DNA from: Moraxella nasibovis
GTDB taxonomy: Bacteria > Pseudomonadota > Gammaproteobacteria > Pseudomonadales > Moraxellaceae
Direction: 5' to 3'
Length of the DNA stretch: 64,000 nucleotides
Assembly: GCF_029581575.1 (NCBI RefSeq)
Contig: NZ_CP089975.1
Coordinates: forward strand, 186,001 to 250,000
Positions 2,154 to 5,478 of this stretch are shown in pieces; within the stretch, counting starts at the first letter, position 1, and every line of letters begins with the position of its first letter. The position numbers and the translations under genes were made by a program. The notes under the pieces were generated by a model. It was not told the origin of the DNA and made no database searches. It worked only from the letters and a program-made list of their open reading frames with translations.

Positions 2154-2224
2154 ATTATAAGGCATTATAGATATTTTTGCTAATTGATAATTTTGATAGG
2201 TAGATATTAGTTAAAATGATAAAT
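2154..2224 (-). promoter_or_regulatory. frmA promoter with shared 42-bp element (site A)
   Basis: A TATAAT box (minus strand, 2154-2159) lies 23 bp downstream of a 42-bp element at 2183-2224. The element contains ATTGAT, TTTTGAT, GTAG and TGATA blocks and matches sites B (3205-3246) and C (5436-5477) at the same spacing. There is no TTGACA-like -35 box (the hexamer is TAGCAA), which suggests an activator-dependent promoter. Confidence 0.75.
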
Positions 2225-2280
2225 AAGGTTTTAGGTTGGCTGAAAGTTATACCTAACGAACTTAAAAATTACTACAAGTC

Positions 2281-2342
2281 GTAGGTGCGTACAACGCACT
2301 GTTGTTGTCTAAGGCCTTTGTTGGTCGTGTTACGCACCTTAC
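2281..2342. repeat. Imperfect inverted repeat between frmA and the nitroreductase gene
   Basis: The arms GTAGGTGCGTA and TACGCACCTTAC enclose about 39 bp. It resembles an interspersed palindromic repeat or a transcript-end hairpin. The rest of 2225-2393 shows no gene. Confidence 0.45.
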
Positions 2343-2393
2343 TTCCAAAACCAATTTTGTGGTAATTTTTTAATTCTTTGACTATATTTTAAA

Positions 2394-2427
2394 ATAAAAA
2401 TACCGCTTTTATTAAAAAAACGGTGTT
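2394..2427 (-). terminator. Possible terminator after the nitroreductase gene
   Basis: On the minus strand a short ACCG/CGGT stem with an A/T-rich inner stem is followed by ATTTTTATTTT. It lies about 50 bp past the nitroreductase stop codon. Confidence 0.5.
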
Positions 2428-2477
2428 TATTCATCATTTCAAACTGCGATAAAAGCAAATAAATGGTTGTTTAAAAC

Positions 2478-3137
2478 TTATTCTACAAATTTCACCACTT
2501 CATCAAAAGTTTTACGGGCTTTTTGGCGGATTTCTTTATCCCTAAACCCAAAAGTTACCATTACCGACACGCCCCATTCGGCAGGGTCAAATAAACCTTC
2601 TTCTGCCAAAATGCGATTGACTTCTTGATAATCAAAGCCTTCAATCGGGCAACTGTCAATGCCAAGCATTGCCGCCCCCGTCATCATATTGGCAAGGGCG
2701 ATGTAGGTTTGTTTGCTCGCCCAGTCAAATAAACTGCGGTCGGACTCCAAAATGGCGATGTCTTCGGTTTGGAATTTTTGATAAATAGCCAATGCCTTTT
2801 CACGAGCTTCGCCCTGCAAGCCCCGTCTGTCCATAATTTCACCAAAATAAGGCGTGTCATAACGGGCGTTTTTCTTGGCAAGAATGGCGACAATGTGGCT
2901 GGCGGTTTCCATTGTCGGAATGCCCCAGCAAAAAGGTTTTAATTTTTGGCGTAAGTCGGCATTTTGCAATACCAAAAATTGCCAAGGCTCAGACCCCACA
3001 GAGCTTGGGGACAAACGTCCCATTTCCAAAATGGCATTAAAATCATCGGCAGGGATTTTCTTATTGCCGTCATACGAACGCGTGGACGCACGGCGATGAA
3101 AGGCACTAATCAGGTCGTCTTTACTAAAAATGGTCAT
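2478..3137 (-). CDS. NAD(P)H-dependent FMN nitroreductase (NfsB family)
   Basis: A 219-residue cytoplasmic flavoprotein of the nitroreductase superfamily. Such enzymes reduce nitroaromatics, quinones and sometimes activated alkenes using NAD(P)H and FMN. Support: the N-terminal HRRASTRSYDGNKKIP, the LSPSSVGSEPWQFLVL FMN-binding segment near residues 45-62, and the late GIDSCPIEGFD motif typical of the NfsB group. I choose the ATG at 3137 over an upstream TTG because GGAG sits six bases before it. Its promoter carries the same 42-bp element as frmA and the OYE gene, placing it in an electrophile-detoxification set. The physiological substrate cannot be read from sequence. Confidence 0.9.
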   Translation of the reverse strand: MTIFSKDDLISAFHRRASTRSYDGNKKIPADDFNAILEMGRLSPSSVGSEPWQFLVLQNADLRQKLKPFCWGIPTMETASHIVAILAKKNARYDTPYFGEIMDRRGLQGEAREKALAIYQKFQTEDIAILESDRSLFDWASKQTYIALANMMTGAAMLGIDSCPIEGFDYQEVNRILAEEGLFDPAEWGVSVMVTFGFRDKEIRQKARKTFDEVVKFVE

Positions 3138-3175
3138 AAATTGCTCCAAAAATGGAAATTTGAAAATTAGGGTGT

Positions 3176-3246
3176 ATTATAAAAGATTTTATTTATTATG
3201 GATAATTGATGGTTTTGATAGGTAGGTATTATTTGAAGTGATAAAT
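3176..3246 (-). promoter_or_regulatory. Nitroreductase promoter with shared 42-bp element (site B)
   Basis: A TATAAT box (minus, 3176-3181) is exactly 23 bp from the 42-bp element at 3205-3246. Sites A and B agree at 36 of 42 positions by hand alignment. The putative -35 hexamer TATCCA is far from consensus. Confidence 0.75.
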
Positions 3247-3778: not shown

Positions 3779-3787
3779 TTTTCCCCC

Positions 3788-4231
3788 TTATGCCACTTTG
3801 TCCATCGCCACCAACACAAGGGCGATGACGATAAAAATCAAGGCGATGACACGGTTTTTGTCCATTTTTTTAGCAGGCATACCAAGCCAACCAAAATGGT
3901 CAATAAGTAAACTTTTGCTGATTTGCCCTGCAAGAATGGCAATCATCGCAGGGGTAATGCCAATCACAGGCACCGCCATCGTCAAAAACACCACATAGCC
4001 CACGCCCAAAATCCCGCCCATCAGTTGCCAAGACGGCTGGGCAAAAAAAGACGGGGCGTTTCTTGGGGCAAAAAACAACATCAGCAAAAATGTCAGTCCT
4101 GCACCCACGCCAAAAATGGAAAATGTCGCCCACAAATGCCCGACTTGCTGCCCAAGCGGTCCAAGCAAGCCTGCTTCCACCGACAAGCCCATTCCTGCGA
4201 TGACAGTGAGCAAAATTAAAATAAGTTGCAT
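3788..4231 (-). CDS. YdcZ/DUF606 family membrane protein, first of a pair
   Basis: A 147-residue inner-membrane protein with about five hydrophobic segments, paralogous to the next gene at 3326. Shared motifs are SWQLMGGILGVGYVVF in the middle and AGQISKSLLIDHFGWLG near residue 110. The start is 22 bp past the hairpin that follows the OYE gene, leaving little room for a separate promoter. Expression is therefore probably by read-through from the OYE promoter. The pair arrangement is typical of DUF606; the transported compound is not known. Confidence 0.82.
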   Translation of the reverse strand: MQLILILLTVIAGMGLSVEAGLLGPLGQQVGHLWATFSIFGVGAGLTFLLMLFFAPRNAPSFFAQPSWQLMGGILGVGYVVFLTMAVPVIGITPAMIAILAGQISKSLLIDHFGWLGMPAKKMDKNRVIALIFIVIALVLVAMDKVA

Positions 4232-4253
4232 TGATTTACCTTGTTTAAATAAT

Positions 4254-4290
4254 AAAAACCGTTGTCCAAAGTCAATTTGACAACGGTTTT
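4254..4290 (-). terminator. Terminator or attenuator between the OYE gene and the YdcZ pair
   Basis: A perfect 12-bp stem, AAAACCGTTGTC with GACAACGGTTTT, is followed by TTTTTATTATT on the minus strand. It lies 24 bp after the OYE stop codon and just before the ydcZ-like start. Confidence 0.8.
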
Positions 4291-4313
4291 ATGATTAAAA
4301 GCGGTTCATAGAT

Positions 4314-5375
4314 TTAAGCAAACCCACGCACATATTGTCTTGGCACAAACTGCATTTCGCTACTGTCCGAGCCATTTTGCTGATATTGGGCGTTTAATAC
4401 CCAATACGGGTCTCGCAAAAGCCCACGACCGACCGCCACCAAATCGGCATCGCCCACGCCCAAAATATGGTCAGCCACCGCCACATTGTCCAGCATACCG
4501 ACCGCAATCACAGGCTTGCCTGTGGCGTGTTTGACTTTGCGAGCCAAATCCACTTGATAGCCTGCATAAAATTCAGGGTGATTGCCCCTGACAAGTACAC
4601 CGTCGCCACCACCGCTGACATCAAACACATCCGCCCCTGCGTCTGAAAATCGTTTGGCAATTTGTACGCCATACTCGCTGTCAAAGCCGTCTTTGCCGTA
4701 TTCTTGGGCGGAAATGCGTACGATTAAAGGCATATCGGCAGGCATCACTTTTTTGGCAGCCTGAATGATTTCCACGCCAAACAAGGCTTTATCTTGACCG
4801 TATTCATCGGTACGCCCATTGGATTTGGGCGAATAAAATTGATGAATCAAATAACCGTGTGCCCCGTGCAATTCAATCGCATCAAAGCCTGCCTCCACCG
4901 CTCTTTTTACGCTATCGGCAAAGGCTTGCACCAAGTCTTTGACTTCCTGCGTGGTCAATTCTCGTGGCGTAATCAAATTTTGCCCCGCATAATCCAGCTC
5001 GCCATAATGAATGGCAGACGGGGCGACGGCATTGGGCTCATCTTGGGCTTTACGACCTGCGTGGGCGATTTGTACGGCAATTTTCGCCCCGTGTGCGTGT
5101 ACGCTGTCCACGATTTTTTTGAATGCGTCTTTTTGTTCGTCATTCCAAAGTCCCAAGCAATTTGGGCTAATGCGACCGTTGGGGGCGACATTGGTCATCT
5201 CCACGATAATGAGGCCCACGCCGCCAATGGCTCGGCTGGTGTAATGTACCAAATGCCAGTCGTTTGGCACGCCATCAACGGCGGAATATTGGCACATTGG
5301 CGGCATCACTACGCGGTTTTTAAGTTCAAGGTTTTTAATGGAAAAGGGGGTAAGAAGCTTACGGATTTTTGCCAT
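4314..5375 (-). CDS. NADH:flavin oxidoreductase, Old Yellow Enzyme family (YqjM/NamA-like)
   Basis: A 353-residue FMN-dependent TIM-barrel ene-reductase. The family reduces activated C=C bonds of enones, quinones and nitroesters, protecting against reactive electrophiles. The N-terminal TPFSIKNLELKNRVVMPPMCQYSA contains the cysteine (near residue 28) that tunes the flavin in the YqjM/XenA subgroup. The substrate-binding histidine pair is in ELHGAHGYLIHQF near residues 173-185, and phosphate-binding residues lie in AVGRGLLRDP near 316. AGGA lies eight bases before the ATG. It is divergent from the lysR gene at 5507, and their 131-bp intergenic region holds site C. Family assignment is secure; the natural substrate is not. 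Confidence 0.93.
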   Translation of the reverse strand: MAKIRKLLTPFSIKNLELKNRVVMPPMCQYSAVDGVPNDWHLVHYTSRAIGGVGLIIVEMTNVAPNGRISPNCLGLWNDEQKDAFKKIVDSVHAHGAKIAVQIAHAGRKAQDEPNAVAPSAIHYGELDYAGQNLITPRELTTQEVKDLVQAFADSVKRAVEAGFDAIELHGAHGYLIHQFYSPKSNGRTDEYGQDKALFGVEIIQAAKKVMPADMPLIVRISAQEYGKDGFDSEYGVQIAKRFSDAGADVFDVSGGGDGVLVRGNHPEFYAGYQVDLARKVKHATGKPVIAVGMLDNVAVADHILGVGDADLVAVGRGLLRDPYWVLNAQYQQNGSDSSEMQFVPRQYVRGFA

Positions 5376-5406
5376 TGGGATAGTCCTAAGTGATGAAATT
5401 TTGGCT

Positions 5407-5478
5407 ATTATAACTTGTTTGGGATATTGGGGGAAATTGATTATTTTGATGAGTAGGTATCATTTGGCATGATATAAT
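5407..5478. promoter_or_regulatory. Divergent OYE/lysR control region with shared 42-bp element (site C)
   Basis: On the minus strand a TATAAT box (5407-5412) lies 23 bp from the element at 5436-5477, as at sites A and B. On the plus strand another TATAAT (5473-5478) overlaps the other end of the element, 29 bp before lysR. This suits a LysR protein that activates the divergent gene and represses itself. Confidence 0.78.

Follow-up and report, generated by a model that had tools for sequence, protein, structure and literature searches.

Genes of the locus and the shared element

The window analyzed here is a 64,000-nucleotide (64-kb) stretch of Moraxella nasibovis DNA (contig NZ_CP089975.1, positions 186,001 to 250,000), in which one 42-bp element precedes three genes: frmA, a nitroreductase-family gene and an OYE-family gene (elements A, B and C, respectively; Table 1). 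The gene fghA lies 3' of frmA and is probably part of the same transcript. The OYE protein is NamA-like, its best NCBIfam model being NamA with 361.8 bits, under the cut-off of 431. A gene for a LysR-type transcriptional regulator (LTTR) is divergent from the OYE gene with element C between the two, as an earlier note on this DNA had described. The regulator has both domains of an LTTR over cut-off, PF00126 (HTH_1) with 58.1 bits and PF03466 (LysR_substrate) with 98.5 bits.

Table 1. Features of the frmA to lysR region, in positions of the window
Feature	Position	Strand	Remark
fghA, S-formylglutathione hydrolase	70-912	minus	TIGR02821, 385.1 bits (cut-off 281.7)
frmA (adhC), S-(hydroxymethyl)glutathione dehydrogenase	1002-2120	minus	TIGR02818, 723.6 bits (cut-off 543.95)
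-10 box TATAAT of frmA	2154-2159	minus	23 bp from element A
Second TATAAT hexamer near the frmA -10 box	2164-2169	minus	
Element A, predicted operator of frmA-fghA	2183-2224	minus	box I 2183-2197 (promoter-proximal), box II 2206-2220 (distal)
Nitroreductase-family oxidoreductase	2478-3137	minus	PF00881, 92.5 bits (cut-off 23.5)
-10 box TATAAT of the nitroreductase gene	3176-3181	minus	23 bp from element B
Element B, predicted nitroreductase operator	3205-3246	minus	box I 3205-3219, box II 3228-3242
YdcZ-family membrane protein, paralog a	3326-3778	minus	PF04657
YdcZ-family membrane protein, paralog b	3788-4231	minus	PF04657; 3' of OYE
OYE-family ene-reductase (NamA-like)	4314-5375	minus	PF00724, 262.1 bits
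-10 box TATAAT of the OYE gene	5407-5412	minus	23 bp from element C
Element C, predicted operator common to OYE (minus) and lysR (plus)	5436-5477		box I 5436-5450, box II 5459-5473
Candidate -10 box TATAAT of lysR	5473-5478	plus	overlaps the end of element C
LysR-type regulator, predicted to bind A, B and C	5507-6403	plus	divergent from OYE

The three elements were found exactly where the earlier note had placed them, with the identities it had counted for A-B (36/42) and B-C (32/42); A and C agree at 31/42 positions. Identity drops outside all three copies. On the promoter side, the 24 bases adjoining the element are identical at 12/24, 12/24 and 15/24 positions in the three pairings, and the 36 bases past these at 16-18/36. 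On the far side, the flanks of A and B share 21/38 positions, but those of A-C and B-C share 6/38 and 7/38. A pattern of the 28 bases fixed in the three sites was used to search the 2.23-Mb genome with up to 3 mismatches and detected no fourth site, and the reversed control pattern had 0 matches in the same genome. A matrix scan of the window singled out the same three places. The weight matrix was built from 21 sites of genomes other than the window's, which came from searches seeded with the window sites, so that it is not fully independent; it scored elements A, B and C at 55.5, 49.5 and 46.9 bits, against -4.3 bits for the next-best place in the 64 kb. The top score in 20 simulated windows was at most -1.1 bits.

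Promoter geometry and box anatomy

A TATAAT hexamer lies exactly 23 bp from each element, and the start codons follow at 62 (A), 67 (B) and 60 nt (C), in agreement with the 60-67 bp first reported. The accompanying claim that the spacers lack a -35 box holds only in part, TTAGCA-18-TATAAT being readable at A. Among the 22 genomes of the genus that were compared (given by G numbers below), in the OYE promoters of G001, G002, G006 and G017 the element is directly followed by TTGAAA, which is separated from the -10 box by 17 bp. The best -10 hexamer was 23 bp away in 28/31 sites with up to 2 mismatches, where gaps of 15-31 were tried and ties were assigned to 23.

The fixed bases of 24 aligned sites form two 15-bp boxes with centers 23 bp apart. 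Box I (positions 1-15, promoter-proximal) reads ATY-N9-GAT in 23/24 aligned sites and has the fuller form ATTGA-N6-TGAT; box II (positions 24-38, distal) reads AT-N10-GAT in 22/24 and has the form AT(T/C/A)A-N7-YGAT. At promoters activated by LTTRs a recognition box is located near -65 and an activation box near -35 to -45. With the TATAAT set at -12 to -7, which yields a predicted start site, the box centers fall at approximately -66 (box II) and -43 (box I). Counted in this manner from the predicted -10 box, the layout of the element would be the usual one for activation by a LysR protein. An FNR-type site (TTGAT-N4-ATCAA) was rejected by eye, as the repeats of the element are direct whereas those of FNR are inverted. 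Both boxes fit AT-N11-AT, and T-N11-A is the pattern described for LTTR boxes (PMC5002191).

Conservation at orthologous promoters

Absence of the element from orthologous promoters would, according to the earlier note, have refuted its reading. Within the genus, other genomes keep the element before orthologs of each of the three genes. For OYE orthologs the element stands 57-63 nt before the gene in 8/10 cases, i.e. in seven genomes besides the window's. It is present in 8/8 of the OYE-bearing genomes with the LysR gene (which is in two frames in G008) and in 0/2 of those without, namely G013 and G007, the latter with a broken OYE gene. Nitroreductase orthologs carry the element 67-71 nt before the gene in 6/7 cases, G001, G002, G017, G018 and G021 among them; the exception is G005, in which the nitroreductase gene sits 73 bp downstream of OYE on the same strand. 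All three close intact frmA orthologs (including those of G021 and G001) have the element 59-69 nt before the gene, and it is also found upstream of the broken frmA of G002. In a frmA lineage at 72-73% identity the element was found in 0/4 cases, with 7-8 mismatches at best, and a scan of the whole frmA locus of G011, which is shortened by the contig, gave 8 mismatches at best.

The gap next to lysR also contains the element in G001 and G008. In two genomes, G002 (L035) and G005 (L038), OYE and lysR are split by restriction-modification-like genes, and in G006 (L036) by ArsC-like and transporter-like genes, all named by eye; the gap between OYE and lysR looks like an insertion hot spot.

Co-occurrence of the element with the regulator

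Orthologs of the LysR protein (at least 66% identity) are encoded in 9/22 genomes, and G018 holds a fragment; in 35 other genomes the best match had 37% identity. Sites with at most 1 mismatch are present in 9/10 of the genomes with the LysR gene or its fragment and in 1/12 of those without (Fisher p = 2.9e-4, with kinship between the genomes ignored). The fragment in G018 is a C-terminal piece (L042:8163-8366) at a contig end, after a frame that by eye is transposase-like. The same genome keeps two elements with up to 2 mismatches, one at the nitroreductase gene and one at a gene for an Ahr-like aldehyde reductase.

A wider predicted target set

A consensus of 22 fixed bases was searched in the 22 genomes with up to 3 mismatches. 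The search gave 33 places, and the reversed control 0. All 21 places with 0-1 mismatch were upstream of OYE (8), nitroreductase (6), frmA (4, one of them broken), Ahr-like (1) or MsnO8-type flavin oxidoreductase genes (2). The 12 places with 2-3 mismatches comprised Ahr-like genes (3), MBL-fold hydrolase genes (2), a distant flavin oxidoreductase gene (1), a decayed copy (1) and five that are likely due to chance. These five, with 3 mismatches each, were set aside (G013, G014, G012, G003:C64 and G001:2125945); the loci of four were looked at, G003:C64 being the remaining one. A third MBL-fold hydrolase site, with 4 mismatches, is present in G018.

The Ahr-like reductase has Ahr as its best NCBIfam model, with 322 of the 470 bits of the cut-off. 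The flavin oxidoreductase passes the MsnO8 cut-off (TIGR03558), and the MBL-fold hydrolase, which has the weaker sites, contains a Lactamase_B_2 domain. The predicted regulon would thus be wider than frmA, nitroreductase and OYE, with the addition of the Ahr-like reductase, the MsnO8-family protein and, at weaker sites, the MBL-fold hydrolase. No gene of an RND efflux operon was found next to the 28 sites that remain once the five likely chance places are excluded.

The decayed copy belongs to the window's own genome (C1:177232-177270; L148:5233-5271) and retains a -10-like hexamer. Since no Ahr-like ortholog was detected in that genome (the best match, at 30%, is frmA itself), this site has the appearance of a relict promoter whose gene was lost. 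It adjoins a tyrosine recombinase gene, and the Ahr-like gene of G002 adjoins a similar recombinase.

Occurrence in other families and possible transfer

In named genomes, the best 80 of 131 loci with LysR homologs were scanned for the element, with up to 5 mismatches for loci before L176 and for L207 and up to 4 for the rest. The 11 nearest loci (L160-L169 and L207; best segments 66-92%) contained the element in eight cases, six of them in the gap adjoining lysR; in the stretches fetched for the remaining loci of these 80 it was found in 0/69. Elements in the lysR gap had 2 mismatches in Alysiella crassa, 3 in Bibersteinia trehalosi, 2 in Avibacterium sp., 1 in Rappaport israeli and 0 in Mannheimia haemolytica, which has a second site, with 1 mismatch, beside a nitroreductase gene. 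Neighbors at these loci outside Moraxella are an OYE, nitroreductase, Ahr-like or flavin oxidoreductase gene. The divergent OYE gene of Avibacterium lies at a distance of 349 bp from the element in the lysR gap. In Actinobacillus, homologs of the regulator (approximately 49%) are likewise opposite an OYE gene (74-75%), and the element is not recognizable there.

The distal box spans the lysR start codon in G001, Alysiella, Bibersteinia, Avibacterium, Rappaport and Mannheimia (L007, L162, L166, L167, L168 and L207, where the box reads ATGACCGATA and similar). Where the start codon falls in the distal box, the first lysR codons may double as operator.

According to the tree of LysR proteins, the families are intermixed in one clade with 100/100 support, which holds 9 of the 11 nearest; Mannheimia and G008 (L169) were left out of the tree, their LysR genes being in two frames. 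The mixing of families within this clade points to horizontal transfer, as judged from the protein sequences. At L164, from a metagenome-assembled genome titled Lonepinella koalarum, the LysR protein is nearly identical to its Moraxella oblonga counterpart (branch lengths 0 and 0.0034), and the contig is possibly mislabelled or from a mixed bin. As a further and tentative proposal, which we regard as plausible without favoring it, the system may be a portable regulon, i.e. the LysR gene with a loose collection of detoxification genes that all carry the operator at a near-fixed distance from the -10 box, exchanged among Moraxella, Pasteurellaceae, Neisseriaceae and Cardiobacteriaceae, its members gained and lost singly under one electrophile-sensing regulator.

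Predicted regulation and its signal

On these comparisons the element is very likely the operator of the LysR protein, which would repress its own gene and activate a regulon for the detoxification of electrophiles and aldehydes. The comparisons within the genus and across families support the LysR-controlled detoxification regulon that the earlier note had predicted from the window. In the mechanism we propose, a LysR tetramer would occupy both boxes, holding box II; with inducer bound, the proximal dimer would shift and settle on box I, and RNA polymerase would then be recruited to promoters with weak -35 boxes. The same occupancy in the gap between OYE and lysR would cover the lysR promoter and lead to autorepression, which is proposed because the candidate lysR -10 box overlaps the end of element C. 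For many LTTRs, a single overlapping dual promoter provides both autorepression and control of the target (PMC3180648).

The predicted targets would serve to clear aldehydes, enones, quinones or nitro compounds. Because the targets share this chemistry, the redox conversion of aldehydes, enones, quinones and nitro groups, the inducer is, from gene content, most likely a reactive electrophile or its product or adduct. At one locus of a Caballeronia plasmid (L285), a LysR homolog of 50% identity faces an SRPBCC gene, which is followed by genes for a type 1 glutamine amidotransferase, a lactoylglutathione-lyase-family protein and an NADH:flavin oxidoreductase (OYE-family). This set, a single case, fits carbonyl stress.

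Several observations weigh against the reading of the element as a LysR operator in an electrophile regulon. No element adjoins lysR in G002, G005, G006, G011 and G021, so autorepression is not general, and the contig of G017 starts 99 bases before lysR, which bears on the same point. The regulator and the element do not coincide in two genomes: G011 has the LysR gene and no site (410 contigs, 89% complete), and G003 has a site with LysR not found (63% complete). The flavin oxidoreductase orthologs of the window's genome (89%) and of G021 (82%) are without the element. Box I departs at position 4 from the nod box of the Pseudomonas regulator MexT (see below), with a strict match in 0/3 window sites and 2/24 sites overall. 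Furthermore, the FrmA, OYE and nitroreductase families also act on other substrates, which limits what gene content can say of the inducer.

An alternative retains the element as the LysR operator and takes the inducer to be a specific metabolite, such as an aromatic acid or a formaldehyde-yielding N-methyl compound, with the enzymes as a scavenging route. We consider it unlikely. The closest PDB chains to the LysR protein by sequence, 2uye (E 2.9e-39) and 1utb, are presumably DntR, a regulator responding to aromatic compounds, which would suit such an inducer. So would the neighborhood of the distant homologs, in which 12/25 minus-strand neighbors resemble the SRPBCC protein of the Caballeronia plasmid locus; on this ground the distant homologs may serve another purpose. 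A third point in its favor is that GfnR of the Pseudomonas adhC operon is reported to be activated by sarcosine (PMC10308882). Yet the target set (OYE, nitroreductase, FrmA, Ahr-like and MsnO8-like) varies and makes up no one obvious pathway, so that shared chemistry fits better than one substrate.

A further reading, in which a different regulator occupies the element, or the element is a structural feature of the promoters, and the adjoining LysR gene is coincidental, is very improbable. The five genomes in which lysR has no adjoining element and the site in G003 are what this would predict, but the element and LysR co-occur within the genus and across families, the element lies in the lysR gap of Alysiella, Bibersteinia, Avibacterium, Rappaport and Mannheimia, and the anatomy is that of LysR boxes at the right distances from the -10 box. 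An origin of the three elements by recent promoter duplication, or as a small mobile repeat, with no regulatory role is scarcely credible: the identity of A and B and some similarity of their flanks would agree with it, but on the far side the flank of C shows no relation to the other two, the genome holds no more copies by the 28-base pattern and one decayed copy by the looser pattern, the distance to the -10 box is nearly constant at 23 bp over several genes and genomes though the spacers differ, and the element is absent at OYE where LysR is absent.

Relation to known regulators and significance

As the predicted binder of the element, the LysR protein was compared with described regulators. 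The operator of MexT, the LysR-type activator of mexEF-oprN in Pseudomonas, consists of two 15-bp nod boxes, ATYA(N7)YGAT (PMC11432991), and MexT is linked to the oxidoreductase gene mexS and to a redox mechanism (PMC6018408). Box II is a strict MexT nod box in 3/3 window sites and 14/24 sites overall. Further PDB relatives of the LysR protein include an activator of PCP degradation and MexT, of which the domain chain 6l33 matches with E 1.3e-14. The LysR protein is nearer to 2uye (139 bits, whole protein) than to 6l33 (58.1 bits, effector domain only, 212 residues), and in the PDB sequence search MexT came behind 2uye, 1utb, 2esn and 4rns, which does not indicate orthology. The targets differ as well: no RND efflux operon was seen among them, and they are instead frmA, OYE, nitroreductase and other reductases. 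By analogy, the system may work like MexT with other targets; it is not MexT.

The equivalogs BsrA and LeuO were also rejected, as the LysR protein stays under both NCBIfam cut-offs, with 157.4 bits for BsrA (cut-off 480) and 144.5 bits for LeuO (cut-off 262). Cysteine 173 (C173) of the LysR protein is invariant in 26/26 aligned rows, homologs of 46-52% identity included; an invariance that extends to these homologs is a trait of the wider family and does not speak for a thiol sensor.

Defense genes against formaldehyde, carbonyls or quinones are regulated by FrmR, NmlR, NemR and, in the case of mdaB, CrgA. The first three belong to protein families other than LysR. CrgA is LysR-type, and the chain 3hhg, which we take to be CrgA, is a weak match to the LysR protein (E 1.3e-4). 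DntR, NagR, NtdR and NahR are represented by the closest PDB chains, assuming 2uye and 1utb to be DntR. GfnR, also LysR-type, resembles the predicted system in controlling a glutathione-dependent formaldehyde operon. The DntR group differs in that its members govern the breakdown of aromatic compounds and respond to, for example, salicylate or nitroaromatics (PMC3180648). GfnR, compared by description only, regulates the adhC formaldehyde operon in Pseudomonas and differs in reportedly being activated by sarcosine, and control of OYE or nitroreductase genes is not mentioned in the available part of its description (PMC10308882).

The earlier note had not recognized LysR co-control of these genes among described systems (FrmR, NmlR, NemR, YodB). 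As GfnR is already described for an operon of the frmA type, the novelty is smaller than first claimed, and the unusual parts are the spread of the element between families and the varying target set. No report on this regulon was among the literature matches listed (titles and abstract starts), in which subscription journals are poorly covered. The same enzymes as frmA-fghA form the AdhC-FghA operon of Moraxella catarrhalis, which contributes to formaldehyde tolerance and matters for lung colonization in mice; the main text of that study names no LysR-type regulator, with "LysR" occurring 0 times, and no regulator of the operon is named in its relevant passages (PMC10917845).

The predicted regulator would join formaldehyde oxidation, ene-reduction and nitro or quinone reduction in one regulon, and its sharply defined operator makes that regulon searchable in any genome. 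The varying targets suggest how a transferable stress response can be kept coherent by an operator instead of an operon.

Other features near the elements

Between the OYE gene and the pair of YdcZ-family genes, a hairpin was read by eye at 4255-4290 (AAAACCGTTGTC ... GACAACGGTTTT). It is missing from the output of the terminator scan and may end the OYE transcript ahead of the YdcZ genes, which makes these genes uncertain members of the predicted regulon. At 3252-3266, 5 bp past element B, is the palindrome TTCAGGCAGCCTGAA, which is unique in the 64 kb (expected 0.01). It contains AGGCAGCCTGAA and AGGCTGCCTGAA, which we take to be DNA-uptake words of Neisseriaceae of the Kingella/Alysiella type, and is a possible trace of transfer from Neisseriaceae.

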